From Helicobacter brantae (GTDB taxonomy: Bacteria > Campylobacterota > Campylobacteria > Campylobacterales > Helicobacteraceae), in contig NZ_NXLV01000002.1 in assembly GCF_003364205.1 (NCBI RefSeq), positions 124,001-188,000 of the forward strand: a stretch of DNA of 64,000 nucleotides, in the 5' to 3' direction. Shown here piece by piece: positions 44,857-60,767 of this stretch (the stretch's first letter is position 1; each line of letters opens with the position of its first letter). Both the position numbers and the translations under genes were made by a program. The notes below the pieces were generated by a model. It was not told where the DNA came from and made no database searches. It worked only from the letters and a program-made list of their open reading frames with translations.

Positions 44857-45972
44857 ATGGGTGCTTTAGAGATTTTACAAAAACTCATCACTTATCCCAC
44901 AATCACCCCCAAAGAGTGTGGAATCTATGAATATATTTGCTCTCTTTTGCCTAACTTTGAAGTCATGAGATTTGATAGAGGGGAGACAAAAAATCTCTTT
45001 TTGCTCTGCAGAAGTCCTAATCCCAATGCTAGGCATTTATGCTTTGCAGGACATATCGATGTCGTCCCAGCAGGGGAGGGGTGGGAGAGTGATCCATTTG
45101 TGCCAACGCTAAAAGAAGGCTATCTTTATGGCAGAGGGGCTCAAGATATGAAGGGGGGAGTGTCGGCATTTTTGAGTGCATTGCGTGAGGTTACTCCCCA
45201 AGAGCTTACACTCTCAGTCTTGCTTACAAGCGATGAAGAGGGGGAGGGCAAAGATGGAAGTCGCTATGTTTTAGAAGAGCTAGAGAGGGCAAATCTCTTG
45301 CCTCATTTTGTGATTGTGGCAGAGCCTACAAGTGAAGAGAAAATCGCAGATATGATAAAGATAGGCAGAAGAGGCTCTATCAATGGGGTTTTAAAAATCT
45401 TTGGAGAGCAAGGACATGTGGCATATCCAAGCAAATGTAAAAATCCTGTGGAGATTTTGGGAGCAAAGCTAGGAGAGATAGCAGGAGTGGAGCTAGATAG
45501 TGGAGATGAGTTTTTTGAGCCTAGCAAGATTGTGATTACTGATATTCGTGGGGGAATGGAAGTTTGCAATGTAACTCCAAGTGAGCTAAAGATAATGTTT
45601 AATGTGCGAAACTCTACCCTCACAAATGCCAAAGATATAGAGGAGTATTTAGAAAAGGTGCTATCTCAAATCCCTCATAGCCTAGAGCTTAATGTTAGCT
45701 CCCTTCCTTTTATGACTTCAAGCTCAAACTCTCTAGTGCAAACCCTTATCTCAAGTATCCAAGCAGTTAAGGGCTACACCCCAGCTCTAGGAAGCACAGG
45801 GGGGACAAGTGATGCAAGGTTTTTCGCCCAATATGGAATCCCTGTGGCTGAACTTGGAGTGCTAAATGATAGGATTCACGCCAAAAATGAGAATGTTAGT
45901 GTCGAGGATTTACAAGATTTAGCAAAAATTTTCAAAAATTTTATTTTATCTTTTGCAAAGGAGAGCAAGTGA
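44857..45972 (+). CDS. dapE: succinyl-diaminopimelate desuccinylase DapE
   Basis: A 371-residue M20-family zinc hydrolase of the lysine/diaminopimelate pathway. Metal ligands are visible in FAGHIDVVPAG (His), YGRGAQDMKGG (Asp), TSDEEGEGKDG (Glu-Glu), AEPTSEEKI and the final His in DRIHAKNE. The start ATG 44857 has AAGGAAAT upstream; an earlier in-frame ATG at 44818 lies inside cmoA. The stop overlaps the GTG start of yedF. Confidence 0.93.
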   Translation: MGALEILQKLITYPTITPKECGIYEYICSLLPNFEVMRFDRGETKNLFLLCRSPNPNARHLCFAGHIDVVPAGEGWESDPFVPTLKEGYLYGRGAQDMKGGVSAFLSALREVTPQELTLSVLLTSDEEGEGKDGSRYVLEELERANLLPHFVIVAEPTSEEKIADMIKIGRRGSINGVLKIFGEQGHVAYPSKCKNPVEILGAKLGEIAGVELDSGDEFFEPSKIVITDIRGGMEVCNVTPSELKIMFNVRNSTLTNAKDIEEYLEKVLSQIPHSLELNVSSLPFMTSSSNSLVQTLISSIQAVKGYTPALGSTGGTSDARFFAQYGIPVAELGVLNDRIHAKNENVSVEDLQDLAKIFKNFILSFAKESK

Positions 45973-46580
45973 AAGAAGCAAGAATTGATATTACTCAAAG
46001 TGTGTGTCAAGATCCTCTAAACAAAGTCAAATCAGTCTTGGAGCAACTCAGAGAGCAGAAAATCTCTGTAAGCAAGATTGAGATTTTGGGAGATAGTGAA
46101 TTGGCTTTAGAGAGTGTGGAGAATTTTTTGATCAATAGTGGTTATATCTTTGAGACTTCAGGCAATGGAGAGCAGTTTGCTATCCTTGTCAAAGGCAAAG
46201 AGGAGATAAAAATTGAGGCACTAGAGGAGAAACCCATAGAGTTTGAAGACAAAATTTTGCTTTTCAGAGATGATCGAATCGGAGAGGGAGAACTAGGCAA
46301 AAAACTTGCTGATGGATTCCTCTCTCAACTCACTCTAAGCCACAAACTCCCCAAAGAAATTATCTTCCTTAATCGTGGAGTTTTACTCTGTGCTGATAGT
46401 CGTAGAAATGCCAATATCCTCAAAGATTTACAAAACCTAGAGCAAAAGGGAGTAAAGCTCTTGCTTTGTCGCACTTGTTTGGAGGCTTTGAGGGTGAAAG
46501 AGAGTGTGGCAGTAGGCAAGATTTCCAATGCTCAAGAGATTATGGATAGGTTGCTCTCAAGCTCTGTGATTAGCCTATAA
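45969..46580 (+). CDS. yedF: YedF-like selenium-metabolism protein
   Basis: A 203-residue protein. The N-terminal TusA-like half has SVCQDPLNKV, the family Cys-x-x-Pro position; the C-terminal DsrE-like half ends with LLCRTCLEALRVKESVAVGKISNAQEI. This two-domain form is the YedF family that travels with selD and is thought to help selenium delivery. GTG 45969 overlaps the dapE stop. Ten bases separate it from selD, in which selenocysteine is used, so context and family agree. Confidence 0.85.
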   Translation: MKEARIDITQSVCQDPLNKVKSVLEQLREQKISVSKIEILGDSELALESVENFLINSGYIFETSGNGEQFAILVKGKEEIKIEALEEKPIEFEDKILLFRDDRIGEGELGKKLADGFLSQLTLSHKLPKEIIFLNRGVLLCADSRRNANILKDLQNLEQKGVKLLLCRTCLEALRVKESVAVGKISNAQEIMDRLLSSSVISL

Positions 46581-46590
46581 GGAGGGAAAT

Positions 46591-47616
46591 ATGCAAAAGA
46601 TGACACCTTTTGTGCGTTGTGTAGGTTGAGCTGCCAAAGTGGGTCTGGAAGACCTAAGACAAATGATGGAAGGCATACAAACTTACCAAGATGAAAATGT
46701 AATCGTGGATTACCAAAAAAGCGATGATGCAGGGGTGTATCGCTTAAGTGATGAGATAGCTTTGATTGAGAGTGTGGATTTTATCACGCCAATTGTTGAT
46801 GATCCTTATATCTATGGGCAGATTGCTGCTTCAAATGCACTTAGTGATATTTTTGCGATGGGGGGAGTGGCAAAGACAGCGATGAATGTGCTAATGTGGG
46901 ATCAAGCCCATATCAGCAAAGAGATGATAAAAGAGATTTTAAGAGGTGGGGCTGAGAGAGTGAGTGAGGCAAAAGTTTCACTTCTTGGAGGGCATAGTGT
47001 AGGGGACTTGGAGCAAAAATATGGACTAAGCGTGAGTGGGGTGGCAAGTCCAAACAAGATTTGGAAAAATTGCACTGCAAAAGAGGGCGATGCTTTGGTA
47101 TTGACAAAGGCTTTGGGGACAGGGATATTAGCCACAGCTCTCAAAAACAATCAACTCAGCTTCAGTAAAGAACTAGAGGGGATAGAGAGTATGATTGCTC
47201 TCAATCAAAACGCTTCTCTTTGTGCCAAAGAGTTTGAAATCCACGCTTGTACCGATGTTACAGGATTTGGACTTATCGGACACTTGCTTGAGATGACTTC
47301 AGGAGATAAAAGTGTGGAGCTAGTGATGGAGAATATCCCTCTGTTTGAGTGTGTTCCAAGTCTAATCAATCAAGGCTTTATCCCCAATGGAAGCAAACAA
47401 AACCAAAGTTATTTGCTCCCTAGCGTTGAGCTATCAACCACTTCACCTTATAGCATTGCTCTCTTTGACGCTCAAACTTCAGGGGGATTGCTCCTTGCCT
47501 TGCCAAAGGCTGAAGCTCCCAAACTTGTAGAATCGCTTAAAGGAGTGGGATATACAAGAAGTGCAATCATTGGGGAGTTTGTGAGTAGGAGAGAAAAAGA
47601 GATTTATATCTTTTAG
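46591..47616 (+). CDS. selD: selenophosphate synthase SelD (selenocysteine-containing)
   Basis: A 341-residue enzyme that makes selenophosphate from selenide and ATP. The reading frame starts at ATG 46591 (AAGGAGGG upstream) and crosses an in-frame TGA at 46627-46629, read as selenocysteine 13: RCVG-U-AAKVG, the known active-site form of SelD. The rest is complete: DDAGVYRL, NALSDIFAMGG, GGHSVGDLEQKYG and DVTGFGLIGHLLEM. A GGTC loop candidate (46642-46645) follows the UGA, closed by CCA/TGG. Ignoring the UGA would give a false GTG start at 46639 that lacks the catalytic residue. Confidence 0.95.
46627..46654 (+). promoter_or_regulatory. selD UGA and candidate SECIS
   Basis: UGA at 46627-46629, with GGTCT at 46642-46646 that can sit in the loop of CCA (46634-46636)/TGG (46646-46648), or pair with AGACC (46650-46654). 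The stem is short, so the structure is tentative, but the position fits bacterial SECIS elements. Confidence 0.5.
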
Positions 47617-51609: not shown

Positions 51610-53520
51610 ATGGATACAGCACAATTCCAACCCATCATCAACTTCATTTGGAGCGTTGCCGATGACCTCTTGCGTGATATTTATGTCAAAGGCAAATATC
51701 GAGATGTGATATTGCCAATGACGGTGATTAGACGACTTGATGCTGTGCTTGAGCCTACCAAAGAAAGAGTGATTAAAACCTATCAGGCCTACAAAGACAG
51801 GCTAGAAAATGTCGATTTGCTCCTCACAGGCTCTCAAGGCAGTGGTATGAGTTTTTACAACTACTCCAAATTCACCCTTCAATCTCTTTGCAATGAGCCA
51901 AAAAATATTCGAGCCAATCTTGAAAACTACCTTGATAGCTTCAGCCCCAATATCCAAGACATTATCTCAAAATTCAAGTTCAAAAACCAGCTTGACACTC
52001 TTGAAGAGGCAGGAATCCTCTTTGAAGTCATTGAGCGATTTTGCTCCCCCAAGATTAATCTCTCCATCAATCCCACTCTAGACCCTCAAGGCAATATCCT
52101 CCAACAAGGGCTAAGCAACCTTGGGATGGGCTATGTCTTTGAAGAGCTGATAAGGAAGTTCAACGAAGAAAACAACGAAGAAGCAGGGGAGCACTTCACC
52201 CCTAGAGAGATTATCCAGCTAATGACTCATCTCATCTTTCTCCCCATCAAAGAGCAAATCCAAGAAGGCTCATTCCTCATCTATGACAATGCCTGTGGAA
52301 GTGGCGGGATGCTTACAGAATCCAAAGACTTCATCACAGACCCTCAAGGGTTAATCCGCTCAAATGCCTCTATCCTCCTCTATGGACAAGAGATAAACCC
52401 TGAAACTTACGCTATCTGCAAAGCCGATATGCTTATCAAAGGCGAAAATCCTGACAATATCAAATACGGCTCAACTCTTAGTGAGGACAAGCTAGGCAAT
52501 CTTCAATTTGACTTTATGCTCACCAACCCTCCCTATGGTAAGTCGTGGGAGAAAGATCAAAAAGCTTTAAATGTGGAGAAAAAAGGAGGCAAAACCTCTT
52601 GCTCTGACCCACGATTCCAAGTGGGAATCACAAGCAAAAGCGATGGGCAAATGATGTTTTTGCTCAATATGGTATCCAAGATGAAGCAAACCCCTCAAGG
52701 CTCTCGTATCGCCTCCGTGCATAATGGAAGCTCCCTTTTCAACTCAGACAGCGGACAAGTGGCTATCCGCAAACACATCATAGAAAACGACTACCTAGAA
52801 GCCATCATCGCCTTGCCTACAAATATGTTCTACAACACAGGCATTCCGACTTTTATTTGGATCATCACCAACAGAAAAAAAGAAGAGAAAAAAGGCAAAG
52901 TCCAACTCATCAACGCCACAAGTGAGAAATATTACTCCAAGATGAAAAAATCCCTAGGCGACAAACAGCACCAAATGGACTCCTCTCATATCGATGCAAT
53001 CACAAAGCTATTTTTGGACTATGCTTGTGAGGGGGATGCCCTAGTGCTAGACAATGAGGACTTTGGCTACACCAAAATCACAATAGAGCGACCCAGAAAC
53101 ACCCAAGACTTGCTAGAAGATGAGAAGTTTAACTCCCTAGCCCAAAAAGAAACCCTCCTAGAAAAACTCACCCACCTAGAATCCCACCCCCAAGACTTCA
53201 AAGACAAAGCCCACTTCCTCTCCTATCTTGGAGTAAAACTCAGCAAAGCCGAAGCCAACCTCCTCATAGACAGCGACAAGACAAGCAACACAGAGAAAAT
53301 CCCTCTCAAAGTCGATATAGACACCTACTATCAAAACGAAGTCAAACCCTATGTGCCAAACTCTTGGATAGATTATGAAAGTGCAAGTGTAGGCTATGAA
53401 ATCCTTTTCAACAAATACTTCTACACCTACACTCCCCCACGAAGTATGGGGGAAATCAAAGCAGAGCTAGAGAGCCTAGAGAGTGAAGTGCAAAGCTTGC
53501 TTAGTGAGATTTTACAATGA
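51610..53520 (+). CDS. hsdM: type I restriction-modification N6-adenine methyltransferase HsdM
   Basis: A 636-residue methyltransferase subunit. SAM-binding region is NACGSGGML and the catalytic motif IV is NPPYGKSW, with LGMGYVFEELIRKF and GEHFTPREIIQLM typical of HsdM upstream. It methylates the recognition site together with HsdS and is also needed for cleavage. The stop overlaps the hsdS ATG by four bases. It is longer than many HsdM proteins because of a C-terminal helical region after residue 490. Confidence 0.95.
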   Translation: MDTAQFQPIINFIWSVADDLLRDIYVKGKYRDVILPMTVIRRLDAVLEPTKERVIKTYQAYKDRLENVDLLLTGSQGSGMSFYNYSKFTLQSLCNEPKNIRANLENYLDSFSPNIQDIISKFKFKNQLDTLEEAGILFEVIERFCSPKINLSINPTLDPQGNILQQGLSNLGMGYVFEELIRKFNEENNEEAGEHFTPREIIQLMTHLIFLPIKEQIQEGSFLIYDNACGSGGMLTESKDFITDPQGLIRSNASILLYGQEINPETYAICKADMLIKGENPDNIKYGSTLSEDKLGNLQFDFMLTNPPYGKSWEKDQKALNVEKKGGKTSCSDPRFQVGITSKSDGQMMFLLNMVSKMKQTPQGSRIASVHNGSSLFNSDSGQVAIRKHIIENDYLEAIIALPTNMFYNTGIPTFIWIITNRKKEEKKGKVQLINATSEKYYSKMKKSLGDKQHQMDSSHIDAITKLFLDYACEGDALVLDNEDFGYTKITIERPRNTQDLLEDEKFNSLAQKETLLEKLTHLESHPQDFKDKAHFLSYLGVKLSKAEANLLIDSDKTSNTEKIPLKVDIDTYYQNEVKPYVPNSWIDYESASVGYEILFNKYFYTYTPPRSMGEIKAELESLESEVQSLLSEILQ

Positions 53521-54836
53521 GTCTGGCACCACAGAGCATTGTCTATAAAGAGAGTGGAATCCCTTGGCTAGGGAAGATTCCTAAGCATTGGGAAATGAGG
53601 AGATTAGCTAGTTTTGGTTCTTTTTCAAAAGGAGGAAATATCTCCAAGGGGGATTTATCAGATAGTGGAAATTCTGTAATCTTGTATGGAGATATTTATA
53701 CAAAATATGAAATTAAAACAAGCAATCTAAAATCCAAAGTGGAAAAGGACTTAGAATCTTTATCAACCCCTATTTATAGTGGAGATATTCTTTTTGCAGG
53801 TTCAGGAGAAACAAAAGAAGATATAGGCAAAGCCGTTGTATATCAGGGAGATGAAAAGGCATTTGCTGGTGGAGATATTATTATTTTTAGACAAGTTGAA
53901 AATAATAGCCTATTCTTATCCTATTGTCTTAATAGTCAATATGCTAAGACATTTAAAGCTATAGAATCAAAAGGGGAAATTATCGTTCATATTTATACCT
54001 CAAATTTGAGAGATTTAAAAATCCCCCTTCCACCCCTTCAAGAACAAAAAGCAATCGCAGATTTTCTTGATAAAAAAACTCATCAGATTGAAGAGTTTAT
54101 CGCCAAAAAGCAAAAGCTTATCACTCTCCTAGAAGAGAAAAAGCAAACCCTCATCAATCAGTGCGTTACCCAAGGGCTTGATTCTTCAATCTCTCTCAAA
54201 GATAGTGGAGTGGAGTGGCTTGGAAAAATCCCTACACATTGGGAGATGAGAAAAATCAAACATATTGCATCGACAAATATAGGATTGGTTTATTCTCCAA
54301 ATGACCTTACTAAGAGCAGTGTCAATAGCGTTGGTATTTTGCGTTCAAACAATATCCAAGGAGGAAAAATTAACTATCTCAATTTGATTTACATCGGTTC
54401 TGAAAAAGTTGGAAAGAAGCAAATTGTTTCAATTGGCGATTTGCTAATGTGTGTAAGAAATGGTAGTGAGGCTCTTGTAGGAAAAACAGCAAAAATTACA
54501 AAAAATAATTTTTCTTTTGGTGCTTTTATGGCAATCATTAGAAGTCCATACAATGATTATCTTTATTGGATTTTTCAAACCGATTTGCTTAGAAAATCTA
54601 TCGCAAACTTTTCTGTTTCTATAGGCATTGGACAGATTTCTCAAGAAGATATAAAAAATTTTATTTTTTCATTCCCTCCCCTTGAAGAGCAAAAGGCTAT
54701 TGCAGAATATTTGGATACGCAGATAGCAAAAATAGATTTGGCAATCTCAAAAATCAAATCCCAAATTAATCTCATCAAAGAATACAAATCCACCCTCATC
54801 TCCGAAGCCGTATGCGGAAGGGTGGGGAGATGTTAA
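53517..54836 (+). CDS. hsdS: type I restriction-modification specificity subunit HsdS
   Basis: A 439-residue subunit with two target-recognition domains, each starting with a W-LGKIP-HWEMR block (residues 13-25 and near 230-245) and each followed by a conserved helix (LPPLQEQKAIADFLDKK and FPPLEEQKAIAEYLD). The two half-sites recognised cannot be predicted here. The repeated blocks at DNA level (TGGCTAGGGAAGATTCC and TGGCTTGGAAAAATCCC) could allow domain exchange. Complete, no truncation. Confidence 0.93.
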   Translation: MSLAPQSIVYKESGIPWLGKIPKHWEMRRLASFGSFSKGGNISKGDLSDSGNSVILYGDIYTKYEIKTSNLKSKVEKDLESLSTPIYSGDILFAGSGETKEDIGKAVVYQGDEKAFAGGDIIIFRQVENNSLFLSYCLNSQYAKTFKAIESKGEIIVHIYTSNLRDLKIPLPPLQEQKAIADFLDKKTHQIEEFIAKKQKLITLLEEKKQTLINQCVTQGLDSSISLKDSGVEWLGKIPTHWEMRKIKHIASTNIGLVYSPNDLTKSSVNSVGILRSNNIQGGKINYLNLIYIGSEKVGKKQIVSIGDLLMCVRNGSEALVGKTAKITKNNFSFGAFMAIIRSPYNDYLYWIFQTDLLRKSIANFSVSIGIGQISQEDIKNFIFSFPPLEEQKAIAEYLDTQIAKIDLAISKIKSQINLIKEYKSTLISEAVCGRVGRC

Positions 54837-54879
54837 CGCGATTCTAGTGGAATCAAAAAAATAAAAAGAAAGGAAAAAA

Positions 54880-55815
54880 ATGGTTATTGATATTAAGCAA
54901 ATTTCAGACTTGGAAATCTTAAAGGAAAGGATTTTGCAAGGAGAAAAGATTGAAATAAGAGAATTTTGCGTATCAGATTGTTTGATAAAACTTGGCAATG
55001 GAAGATTTCAGTCCTATAAAGAAAAAACCTTTAATGATGATATGGCAAAAGTTGTAATTGAGTTTCAAAAAAGCTATACAAGGTTTTTGAAAGAACTCAA
55101 AAAAGAGTTTAAGATAGAGATTCCAGCAGGTGCTGAAAAGATTACCTTTGAAGTTTCTAAGGGTAGTATAGAGTTTCTTAATCCTGAAATTTTTTCTTTT
55201 TTAAAGGAGGTTTTCAACAATATGGAGAGTGGAGATATCGCAGTTGTATTGTGTGTACTGATTGGGGCATTTTGTGGTGGATATGCTTGGAAAAAGAAAC
55301 TAAATAAGGATATGCTTGAAATAGAAAAAAAGACAGAAATTGAAAAACAAAAGATTGCAAAAGATGAAAAGCAAGATGTCTTAAAAATTGCTGAAAGTGC
55401 TTTAGAATTATTGAAAAATACAAAAAATAACGCTAACTTTGAACGAGCTAGTAATGGATACAAAGAGGCAATCATTAATCAATTGGAAGATGATGAACAA
55501 GTTTCTTTTTTGCAAGAGAGAACTCTTGTTAGACAAAATGCTAGTGAATTTTTAATTTCACAGACACAAGAGGATAATGAGCAAGAAATTGAGGAGATTC
55601 AAGAAGTTTCTCTACGATACTATAATTTCAAAAATAAGAGATTTAAAATCGATGGTATAAGTTGTGAAGCAAATTCAGATATTTTGACTCCAGATAAGCG
55701 TATAAAGCTAATGTCGTTTGCTGATAGTGGTAAAAAAATTCAGCTCAAACTTAAGTTTCTCAAAGATAGTAAAGGCAAAGATAAAGAGGTGTATATCCTT
55801 GATTGTATTTTGTAG
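54880..55815 (+). CDS. membrane/coiled-coil protein inserted in type I locus
   Basis: A 311-residue protein I do not recognise. An alpha/beta N-terminal part (1-120) is followed by one membrane helix (AVVLCVLIGAFCGGYAW, about 125-142), a strongly charged coiled coil (about 145-190) and a C-terminal part with many strands ending in a Lys/Asp-rich segment. AAAGGAAA is the ribosome site. It lies between hsdS and hsdR, where extra genes often serve in phage defence or modulate restriction. No known domain is visible. Confidence 0.6.
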   Translation: MVIDIKQISDLEILKERILQGEKIEIREFCVSDCLIKLGNGRFQSYKEKTFNDDMAKVVIEFQKSYTRFLKELKKEFKIEIPAGAEKITFEVSKGSIEFLNPEIFSFLKEVFNNMESGDIAVVLCVLIGAFCGGYAWKKKLNKDMLEIEKKTEIEKQKIAKDEKQDVLKIAESALELLKNTKNNANFERASNGYKEAIINQLEDDEQVSFLQERTLVRQNASEFLISQTQEDNEQEIEEIQEVSLRYYNFKNKRFKIDGISCEANSDILTPDKRIKLMSFADSGKKIQLKLKFLKDSKGKDKEVYILDCIL

Positions 55816-55816
55816 T

Positions 55817-55874
55817 CTATTGACCTATGCTACCTATCCCAAAAGGGAAGCCCTCCTTGAGGTCTTGTCAATAG
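55817..55874 (+). ncRNA. possible three-way-junction RNA element before hsdR
   Basis: A closing stem CTATTGAC (55817-55824)/GTCAATAG (55867-55874) encloses two small hairpins: TCCC-AAAA-GGGA (55837-55848) and CCTC-CTT-GAGG (55852-55862). All three helices are perfect. It lies in the 127-base gap after the inserted gene and 69 bases before hsdR. It could be an hsdR leader, a small RNA or a processing site; no known family is recognised and no U-run marks a terminator. Confidence 0.4.
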
Positions 55875-55942
55875 CTAGGAACCTTTGAGAGGAATTATAA
55901 CAAAAATGTTTTTGAATTTTAGAGATAACACAAGGATTAAAA

Positions 55943-58867
55943 ATGACTAATTACAAAGAAAAAGATTTAGAAGCCTTTATTGAGGAATATTTGCTTTCTC
56001 ACTCCTATGTCAAGCGAGAGGATAGCGACTATGACAAAGCCCTATGTCTTGATAGCAAAATGTTCTATGAGTTTATCCACTCTACTCAGAGCAAGGCAAT
56101 TGAAGAGCTTTCAAGGCGTGGGGTTAAGGATTGGCAAGGAGCCTTGCTTAAGCGAGTGGTTTCTGCTATCAGAGATAGAGGTATCCTCAAAGCCCTTCAA
56201 TCCCCTCTAGAAGTCAGTGGTGTGAAATTCACCCTTCTCTATCCCAAACCCTCTACAGATTCTAACCCCACAGCTCTAGAGAACTACTCTTGCAATACCC
56301 TCTCTCTCATCCGTCAGCTCCATTACAGCTCACAGAACAACAACTCCCTAGATATGGTGCTTTTCCTCAATGGAATCCCCATCATCACAATCGAGCTAAA
56401 AAACCCATTTACAGGACAAAATGTCTATCACGCCATAGAGCAGTATAAGAGAGACAGAGACCCTAGAGAGCCACTTTTTGATCGCTGTATCGTGCATTTT
56501 GCACTTGATAGTGATTTGGTATATATGACTACCAAGCTTCAAGGAGTAAAAACCTTCTTTCTCCCCTTCAATCGTGGGCTAAACAATGGCAGTGGAGCCA
56601 TAGGGTGCAAAAATGGTGCAGGAAATCCCCCAAGTGAAGGGATAAAGACAGCCTATCTATGGGAGAGAATCTTCTCCAAAGATATTTTGATTCCCTTAGT
56701 GTTAGATTTCGTGCAGGAAGTGGATGGCAAAATCATCTTCCCAAGATACCATCAGTTTGATGTGGTGGAAAAGCTTCTTGAGGATGTCAGAGAGAGGGGA
56801 GTGGGAGGACGCTATCTTATCCAGCATAGTGCAGGAAGTGGCAAAAGCAACTCAATCTCTTGGCTCTCTCACGCTCTTGTGGGATTACATAGAGTGAGAG
56901 AAGATGGAGAGTTAGAACTTGTCTTTGATAGCGTGATAGTGGTAACTGATAGAAGAGTGCTTGATGCTCAAATCCGAGAAAATATCAAGAAATTCTCCCA
57001 CACCAAAGGTATCGTAGAGGCTATCACCGATGGGAGTCGTCATCTCAGAGAGGCTCTAGAAGAAGGTAAGAAAATCATCATTTCCACCATTCAGAAATTC
57101 CCTCATATCCTTGATGAGATGTTGCAGGTAAAGGGCAAAAGATTTGCAATTATCATTGATGAAGCTCACTCTAGTCAGAGTGGCACTTCGGCTCAAAAGC
57201 TAGGAGAAGTCATCAGGGACAGAGAAGAGAGTAGTGAGGATAAAATCATAGAAATTATCAAAAACAAAAAGCTCCAGCCAAACGCTTCTTATTTTGCATT
57301 CACCGCTACGCCCAAGCCTAAAACTTTGGAGATGTTTGGCACACCTTATGAGATAGATGTGGTTCAGAAATTTATCCCTTTCCACCTCTACTCAATGAAA
57401 CAAGCCATAGAAGAAGGATTTATCCACGATGTGCTGAGGGGATACACCACTTACAATAGCTACTACAAAATCGCCTCAAGTGTTGAAGATAATCCTATGT
57501 TTGACAAGAAAAAAGCCAATGCCAAAATCAAGCGATATGTAGAGAGTGATGAGAATGCAATCGCCAAAAAAGCAGAGATAATGATCGATCACTTCTATGC
57601 CAATATCCATAAAAGAATCGGAGGAAAGGCCAAAGCAATGGTGGTTACTAGCTCTAGGGAAAATGCTGTGAAATACTTCTTTGCCTTCAGGGAATATCTC
57701 AAGAGCAAGTTTCCCCCTTATGGTGTTTTGGTAGCGTTTTCAGGAGAAGTAGTGATTGATGGAGAGAGCTATAGTGAGAGTGGGCTAAATGGCATTAGTG
57801 AGGCAAGACTAAAAGAAGAGTTTGAGAAAGACAAATATCGCTTCTTAATCGTGGCTGAGAAATATCAAACAGGCTTTGATCAACCTCTATTGCATACGAT
57901 GTATGTGGATAAGCGACTAAGTGGGGTGAGTGCAGTGCAAACCCTCTCAAGGCTCAATCGCACTTGCAAAAACAAAGAAGATACCTGTGTGCTTGATTTT
58001 GCAAATACTCATGAGGAGATTGGAGAATCTTTTAGCACTTTCTATGAGCAAACATTCCTAGGAGAACCCACCGATATCAACAAAATCTTTGATCTCAAAA
58101 GCAATCTATTTGAATATGAGGTTTTCTATCAAGAAGAGGTAGATGAGTTTGCAGAGATGATTTTAAGAAGAGAGAGGGAGAATACTATCCACGCAAAGCT
58201 TGATGTAATGGTGGCTAGATATGAGGCCTTAGGGAGTGATGATACTAGATTGGAGTTTTACAACAAGGCAAAAACTTATCTCAAAGATTATTCTTTCCTA
58301 GCTCAAATCTTGCCATTTGAAGATGTAGAGCTTGAGAAAACCTATATTTTGCTTAAAAAACTCATTGCCAAACTCCTCCTACCTAGGGCTGAAGATTTGG
58401 CTAAAGGGATATTAGATAGTGTGGATTTTGAGAGTTATCGAGTTCAGCTAGATAAAACACTAGATATTGCTCTTGAGGGTGAGGGAGAGCTTAAGCCCTC
58501 ACAAGCTGATGGCACTAGCAGAATGCCTGAGGCAGAGCTAGAGGGACTTATGGAAATCATCAGAGAGTTCAATGAAAAGCACGGAGTGGAAGACTGGGGA
58601 GAGGAGGATAAACTAGCCAAAGGACTTGTCTATGTCCAAGAGCAGGTTGAGGCCAATCAACAACTTCTCAAAACCGCTCAAAATTCTGACAAACAAAACG
58701 CTCAAATTGTGTTTGAGAAAGTGTTGTCTGAGAGTATGCAAAATGTTCTTGACATACACTTTTTTCTCTTTCAACAATTCAATGACAACAAAGAATTCAA
58801 AGAGCGTATCACACGCAAGATGTTTGATATGTGGTATGACAAGATTGGTGCAAGGATGGAGAGATGA
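55943..58867 (+). CDS. hsdR: type I restriction endonuclease subunit HsdR
   Basis: A 974-residue motor and nuclease subunit. The N-terminal endonuclease domain has the NxxDMVLFLNGIPIITIELKNP motif with the catalytic ELK. The helicase core has Walker A HSAGSGKSNSI, DEAH in IIDEAHSSQSG, and FTATPKPKT (motif III). Late motifs include VAEKYQTGFDQP and QTLSRLNRTC. Cleavage occurs at distant sites after ATP-driven translocation. Complete. The gene starts after a separate leader rather than being coupled to hsdS. Confidence 0.95.
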   Translation: MTNYKEKDLEAFIEEYLLSHSYVKREDSDYDKALCLDSKMFYEFIHSTQSKAIEELSRRGVKDWQGALLKRVVSAIRDRGILKALQSPLEVSGVKFTLLYPKPSTDSNPTALENYSCNTLSLIRQLHYSSQNNNSLDMVLFLNGIPIITIELKNPFTGQNVYHAIEQYKRDRDPREPLFDRCIVHFALDSDLVYMTTKLQGVKTFFLPFNRGLNNGSGAIGCKNGAGNPPSEGIKTAYLWERIFSKDILIPLVLDFVQEVDGKIIFPRYHQFDVVEKLLEDVRERGVGGRYLIQHSAGSGKSNSISWLSHALVGLHRVREDGELELVFDSVIVVTDRRVLDAQIRENIKKFSHTKGIVEAITDGSRHLREALEEGKKIIISTIQKFPHILDEMLQVKGKRFAIIIDEAHSSQSGTSAQKLGEVIRDREESSEDKIIEIIKNKKLQPNASYFAFTATPKPKTLEMFGTPYEIDVVQKFIPFHLYSMKQAIEEGFIHDVLRGYTTYNSYYKIASSVEDNPMFDKKKANAKIKRYVESDENAIAKKAEIMIDHFYANIHKRIGGKAKAMVVTSSRENAVKYFFAFREYLKSKFPPYGVLVAFSGEVVIDGESYSESGLNGISEARLKEEFEKDKYRFLIVAEKYQTGFDQPLLHTMYVDKRLSGVSAVQTLSRLNRTCKNKEDTCVLDFANTHEEIGESFSTFYEQTFLGEPTDINKIFDLKSNLFEYEVFYQEEVDEFAEMILRRERENTIHAKLDVMVARYEALGSDDTRLEFYNKAKTYLKDYSFLAQILPFEDVELEKTYILLKKLIAKLLLPRAEDLAKGILDSVDFESYRVQLDKTLDIALEGEGELKPSQADGTSRMPEAELEGLMEIIREFNEKHGVEDWGEEDKLAKGLVYVQEQVEANQQLLKTAQNSDKQNAQIVFEKVLSESMQNVLDIHFFLFQQFNDNKEFKERITRKMFDMWYDKIGARMER

Positions 58868-60300: not shown

Positions 60301-60344
60301 AATCCTTTGCTAGTCTTTTGTATAAAAAAATCCAAAGGAGAAAA

Positions 60345-60767
60345 ATGAATAAGTTTGCTTTAATGTTTCTAACTTGTGTCAGTTTGTGGGCAACCCCTCA
60401 AATGAGCGTATATGCAAGTCCGACTTGAGGGTGCTGTGGGCTTTGGTCAAAGCACTTAGAAAAAAACGGCTTCAATGCCAAAGAAATTAAAACTGATCAA
60501 TGGTGGGATTACAAAGACAAAATGAATGTCCCCCAAGAGCTTAGAAGTTGCCATACAGGGGTGTATGAAGGATATTTCTTTGAGGGGCATATCCCTGCTG
60601 AAGATATCGCTAGATTTCTCAAAGAAAAACCCAAAGATATGATAGGTTTGGCTGTGCCTGATATGCCTCAAGGAAGCCCAGGGATGGAGCAAGGAATGGG
60701 GAGAGAGCCTTATAGCGTCTATTATGTCAAAAAAGATGGCAGTTATGGAGTGTGGGCAAGACACTAA
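60345..60767 (+). CDS. DUF411-family exported protein with selenocysteine
   Basis: A 140-residue protein whose frame is interrupted by one TGA (60426-60428). Read through as selenocysteine 28, the protein is complete: signal peptide (MNKFALMFLTCVSLWA), then YASPT-U-GCCGLWSKHL, where other DUF411 proteins have SPTCGCC, then ELRSCHTGVYEGYFFEGHIPAEDI and GLAVPDMPQGSPGM, all family hallmarks. The UGA thus replaces exactly the first Cys of the metal- or thiol-active CxCC site. A SECIS-like hairpin with a GGTC loop follows. AAAGGAGAAAA lies before ATG 60345. DUF411 proteins are linked to copper handling; the selenium form's role is unknown. Confidence 0.88.
60426..60455 (+). promoter_or_regulatory. 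UGA codon and candidate SECIS hairpin in DUF411 gene
   Basis: UGA 60426-60428 is followed by GCTTT (60440-60444), GGTC (60445-60448) and AAAGC (60449-60453): a 5-bp stem with a GGUC loop, the apical sequence known from the fdhF SECIS element. The loop begins 16 bases after the UGA, a fitting distance. Confidence 0.7.

Follow-up and report, generated by a model that had tools for sequence, protein, structure and literature searches.

CopG is described as a periplasmic thioredoxin-fold protein in which a CxCC motif and two Met residues bind a tetranuclear copper cluster (PMC7558416), and either a copper oxidoreductase activity or a part in copper transfer has been proposed for it (PMC7558416; PMC8456105). 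In the related CutG, the two Met residues form the pair M120-x6-M127, and mutation of the CxCC motif in R. capsulatus had no effect on CutO activity (PMC8456105), so some doubt about the role of this site extends to the Cys forms. Linkage to copper genes is frequent, but not defining, in the DUF411/CopG family, and a periplasmic location has been shown for its characterized members. Selenoproteins of the bacterial group considered here were surveyed in 2015 (Cravedi et al., PMC4607533) and comprised Fdh, SelD, SelW, Trx, a peroxidase, and DUF466; the last of these, the KCU-star/DUF466 selenoprotein of Campylobacterales, resembles the case described below in that the family was first recognized in the group by UGA/Cys pairs, but it is an unrelated family with the motif CU. 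DUF411/CopG is absent among the 119 prokaryotic selenoprotein families of a 2026 inventory (PMC13188914). Selenocysteine (Sec) does occur there in two other copper-named proteins, the SO_0444 family Cu/Zn efflux transporter (UxC) and a CopZ-family (2Fe-2S)-binding protein, but these belong to other families, with neither DUF411 nor the CopG fold. We found no earlier report of DUF411 as a selenoprotein in a search of mainly open-access literature, so priority is not certain; two papers, genome or transcriptome studies of other organisms, mention both CopG and selenocysteine, each term once. Judged from sequence, DUF411/CopG appears to be a selenoprotein family new to the current inventory.

The window analyzed here, a stretch of 64,000 nucleotides, is part of the 1.73 Mb draft genome of Helicobacter brantae and contains a copG/DUF411 gene on the plus strand (60345-60767, 140 amino acids) with one in-frame TGA, which we read as a putative Sec codon. 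The frame begins with ATG at 60345, is open on both sides of the TGA at 60426-60428 (residue 28), and terminates with TAA at 60765-60767. A ribosome-binding site read from the sequence, AAAGGAG (60334-60340, plus strand), lies 4 nt 5' of the ATG, and the first codons (60345-60398) specify a probable signal peptide, MNKFALMFLTCVSLWATP, with a hydrophobic N terminus after Lys. The TGA corresponds to the U of the UxCC copper site, giving the motif SPT-U-GCC, and is followed by the codons of Cys30 and Cys31 (60432-60437) and by those of the M-x6-M ligand pair, Met107 to Met114 (60663-60686). The part 3' of the TGA matched Pfam DUF411 (PF04214) with E = 7e-25 (86.9 bits versus a cut-off of 27). These results bear out the preliminary description, which had placed the UGA at exactly the first Cys of the conserved SPTCGCC site in a frame open on both sides with family motifs, a ribosome site, and a signal peptide, the last of which we regard as probable. 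Seventeen TGA-interrupted frames of similar size occur in the window, and most of the 16 besides copG lie inside longer ORFs. With copG as the one frame compared with family libraries, it is also the only one recognized in which TGA stands where a known family has a conserved Cys. A chance origin of the TGA at this conserved Cys codon is very unlikely. Annotations of these genomes probably show the gene as truncated or in two pieces.

The only full-length relatives of the protein in the PDB were 6wis and 6wje, both named copper resistance protein CopG (phmmer E = 2e-28). Consistent with this, an AlphaFold2 model in which Sec was entered as Cys (mean pLDDT of 89, with residues 1-10, part of the probable signal peptide, at low confidence) had a thioredoxin-like fold and matched 6wis in a Foldseek search with E = 2.6e-15; for 6wis and 6wje, the TM score was ∼0.9 (0.91, target-normalized) at 1.4-1.7 Å. 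The protein thus resembles CopG/CutG (PF04214; 6wis and 6wje) in its fold, in ∼41% identity over the aligned part, in its probable N-terminal export signal, and in its ligand set, the spacing of Met107-x6-Met114 being that of the CutG pair, and it differs in having Sec where CxCC begins with Cys and in that its gene lies outside a copper operon. Positions 28, 30, 31, 107, and 114 were invariant in our alignment when Sec was counted as Cys. The preliminary description had suggested a selenium-based chemistry of periplasmic metals or redox reactions. This is supported and, because DUF411 is the CopG copper resistance family with solved structures, can be narrowed to copper, although the copper role of the Sec protein is assigned by homology.

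We consider it likely that the product of copG is a Sec-containing version of the periplasmic copper protein CopG with a Sec-liganded Cu(I) cluster. In the mechanism that we propose, SelB and Sec-tRNA(UCA) would decode the UGA at codon 28, aided by a downstream hairpin, and the product would be exported to the periplasm by its N-terminal signal. There, Sec28, Cys30, Cys31, Met107, and Met114 would serve as the ligands of a polynuclear Cu(I) cluster like that of CopG, and the protein would buffer Cu(I) exported by Cu-ATPases, or oxidize or transfer it. Because the CopG cluster is held by CxCC and two Met residues, Sec would replace a cluster ligand, and its placement there would represent a natural sulfur-to-selenium swap in a copper site. 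A selenolate is a softer ligand than a thiolate and has a lower pKa; from this general chemistry, tighter Cu(I) binding and faster electron or ligand exchange are expected. Cu-ATPases are present in the genus, and no multicopper oxidase was detected in it. On balance, we slightly favor the view that selenium bridges or terminates a CopG-type Cu(I) cluster and thereby tunes its redox or transfer properties, as an evolved alternative to a multicopper oxidase in bacteria of the low-oxygen gut.

A different reading of the same protein is that it is a CopG-fold selenoprotein using Sec for thiol-disulfide or peroxide chemistry and not for copper. Such a role would suit its thioredoxin-like fold, which is that of most known selenoproteins, themselves largely redox proteins (PMC13188914), and no copper gene adjoins copG in the immediate neighborhood, either in H. 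brantae or elsewhere in the genus. We nonetheless regard this reading as unlikely because every copper ligand of CopG, in both UxCC and M-x6-M, is retained without exception and because the close PDB relatives are named for copper resistance.

As named from translations, the neighbors of copG in H. brantae are ybeY on one side and purM on the other, and in the genus the gene can also lie beside ybeY and the aroE region. In G000, G002, and G004 of the six species of the genus, purM follows closely 3' of copG in the same direction, so that a stop at codon 28 could lower downstream translation; the UGA might therefore serve mainly as a selenium-dependent expression switch for copG and purM, the Sec residue itself being of minor importance. 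We consider this very improbable, since purM does not follow copG in G001, G003, and G005, two of which keep the UGA, and since the UGA stands exactly at the codon of a metal-ligand Cys. Shortly upstream of ybeY, translations of the region 51610-58867 revealed a type I restriction-modification-like set (methylase, specificity, and helicase-like subunits). At the other end of the window, a copper P1B-type ATPase is encoded on the minus strand (1040-2740; 456.9 bits versus a family cut-off of 397).

Next, we compared the codon at this site across species. copG was found in all six species of the genus, with TGA at codon 28 in five and TGC (Cys) in G003 (one contig); the nearest named relative found, Candidatus Helicobacter avistercoris, has a protein 87% identical to that of H. 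brantae. Outside the genus, we drew on a family sample (121 genomes, 32 with copG) and a phylum sample (397 genomes, 132 with copG). None of the ∼130 homologues outside the genus in these samples had a TGA within the match, and the codon equivalent to codon 28 was TGT or TGC in all homologues of other genera that were inspected. The search for U/C pairs recommended in the preliminary description thus returned five TGA and one TGC codon in the genus and Cys elsewhere, and the TAA or TAG codons that it had named as contrary evidence did not occur at this position in the relatives. TAA codons were seen only at other places, in two homologues from another family of the order (G445:C1:461092-461441 and G504:C1:447475-447874). 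With TAA codons or a broken frame away from codon 28, these two resemble ordinary pseudogenes. Two short open frames that had been considered as additional Sec candidates were set aside, that of G445 as this pseudogene and that of G224 as a homologue that stops at a contig edge. A plasmid search returned thousands of DUF411 genes, which lie outside the TGA codon comparison.

Downstream of the TGA, Ka/Ks was 0.04-0.20 in the computable pairs, although synonymous sites approached saturation or, in several pairs, had reached it; this part is therefore most likely translated and functional. As expected, the signal peptide part was freer in selection than the rest. One might suspect that copG is decaying and that the TGA is a plain nonsense mutation, or that a sequencing error produced it, because TGA works as a stop in this genome and copG pseudogenes exist in the order. 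This possibility is refuted by the identical codon in five species from separate assemblies, and strong purifying selection 3' of the TGA, the absence of any further lesion in copG of these five species, and the fact that the apparent pseudogenes are interrupted by TAA and elsewhere in the gene all argue in the same direction. A code in which TGA specifies a standard amino acid such as Trp, or a suppressor tRNA that decodes it, would equally leave the frame open but has practically no probability, because 11 of the window's 44 long ORFs end in TGA, as does copG itself in G005 and G003, which argues against a general code change, and because the homologous residue is Cys, Trp in the same protein is encoded by TGG, and a tRNA-Sec is present.

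The H. brantae genome has the complete machinery for Sec insertion. Genes for tRNA-Sec with the anticodon TCA (C35:19117-19211), selA (C35:19281-20600), and selB (C35:20632-22440) lie side by side on contig C35, and selD lies in the same window as copG, with its own Sec codon TGA at 46627-46629 (plus strand) in a read-through frame that ends at 47616. The expectation that the machinery exists, which the preliminary description had drawn from the Sec-containing SelD of the window, was therefore correct. An fdhA gene with an in-frame TGA is also present in the genome. From these sequence data, we hold Sec insertion at the copG UGA to be very likely. Directly 5' of selD, we noted yedF, a gene of selenium metabolism (window 45969-47616 for both), and the selD hairpin has the form TGGGTCT-GGA-AGACCTA. 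In G001, fdhA appears to be present twice, and both copies contain an in-frame TGA (G001:C7:2791-4296 and G001:C4:2776-4296).

The sequence that follows the copG UGA can be compared with established Sec sites of the same genome and its relatives. In SelD and FdhA of Helicobacteraceae and relatives (PMC4607533), the UGA is read by the Sec machinery that would also serve copG and, as in copG, is followed by a hairpin of 5-8 bp with GG in a loop 16-18 nt downstream; in the SelD and FdhA sites of these genomes, the stem is 5-8 bp and GG opens the loop, at a distance from the UGA of 17 nt in SelD and 18 nt in FdhA. The protein families are unrelated, and the loops differ, being GGUC in copG, GGA or GGC in SelD, and mostly GGUGU in FdhA. 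The predicted SECIS hairpin of copG, GCTTT-GGTC-AAAGC (60440-60453, plus strand), begins 11 nt 3' of the TGA, has its loop 16 nt 3' of it, and is found in all five Sec species. The GGUC-loop hairpin of the preliminary description is thus real, although the minimum-energy fold of the region alone was no better than that of shuffled sequences (z = -0.84). In addition, an outer GGGUGCU/AGCACUU pairing competes with the hairpin; for both reasons, thermodynamics alone was not used, and the hairpin takes its weight from its position and conservation. A hairpin descriptor recovered 30 of 31 SelD/FdhA Sec sites and all five Sec CopG genes, compared with 15 of the 2967 TGAs in the window (0.5%, including the selD and copG Sec sites) and 2-3% of synonymous recodings, rates that are descriptive because the descriptor was chosen after the three gene classes had been seen. 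In G001, the stem has a compensatory two-sided change from U-A to C-G; only one of the five pairs varies, and as much covariation arose in 105 of 500 shuffles. The descriptor also matched five Cys homologues from a single other genus through a different and weaker stem; these were taken as chance matches.

The Cys copG gene of G003 (locus L006, within 1561-1615) keeps a SECIS-like hairpin, GCTTTGGTCAAAGC, whereas the Cys copG genes of the sister genus are without one. Because G003 retains SelB and Sec-type SelD and FdhA, its Cys codon does not stem from loss of the pathway. The simplest reading, which we consider likely, is that this hairpin is a relic SECIS left after reversion from Sec to Cys. 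Alternatively, Sec may have been gained after G003 split off, on a hairpin that was pre-adapted, as would be possible because G003 and the group of five Sec species form sister lineages (96/94) in the species tree built from SelB plus IF2; the tree of the short copG gene differs and groups G003 with G001 and G005 (84/85). Under either history, the Cys protein of G003 is a sister form within the same genus that allows direct comparison with the Sec form.
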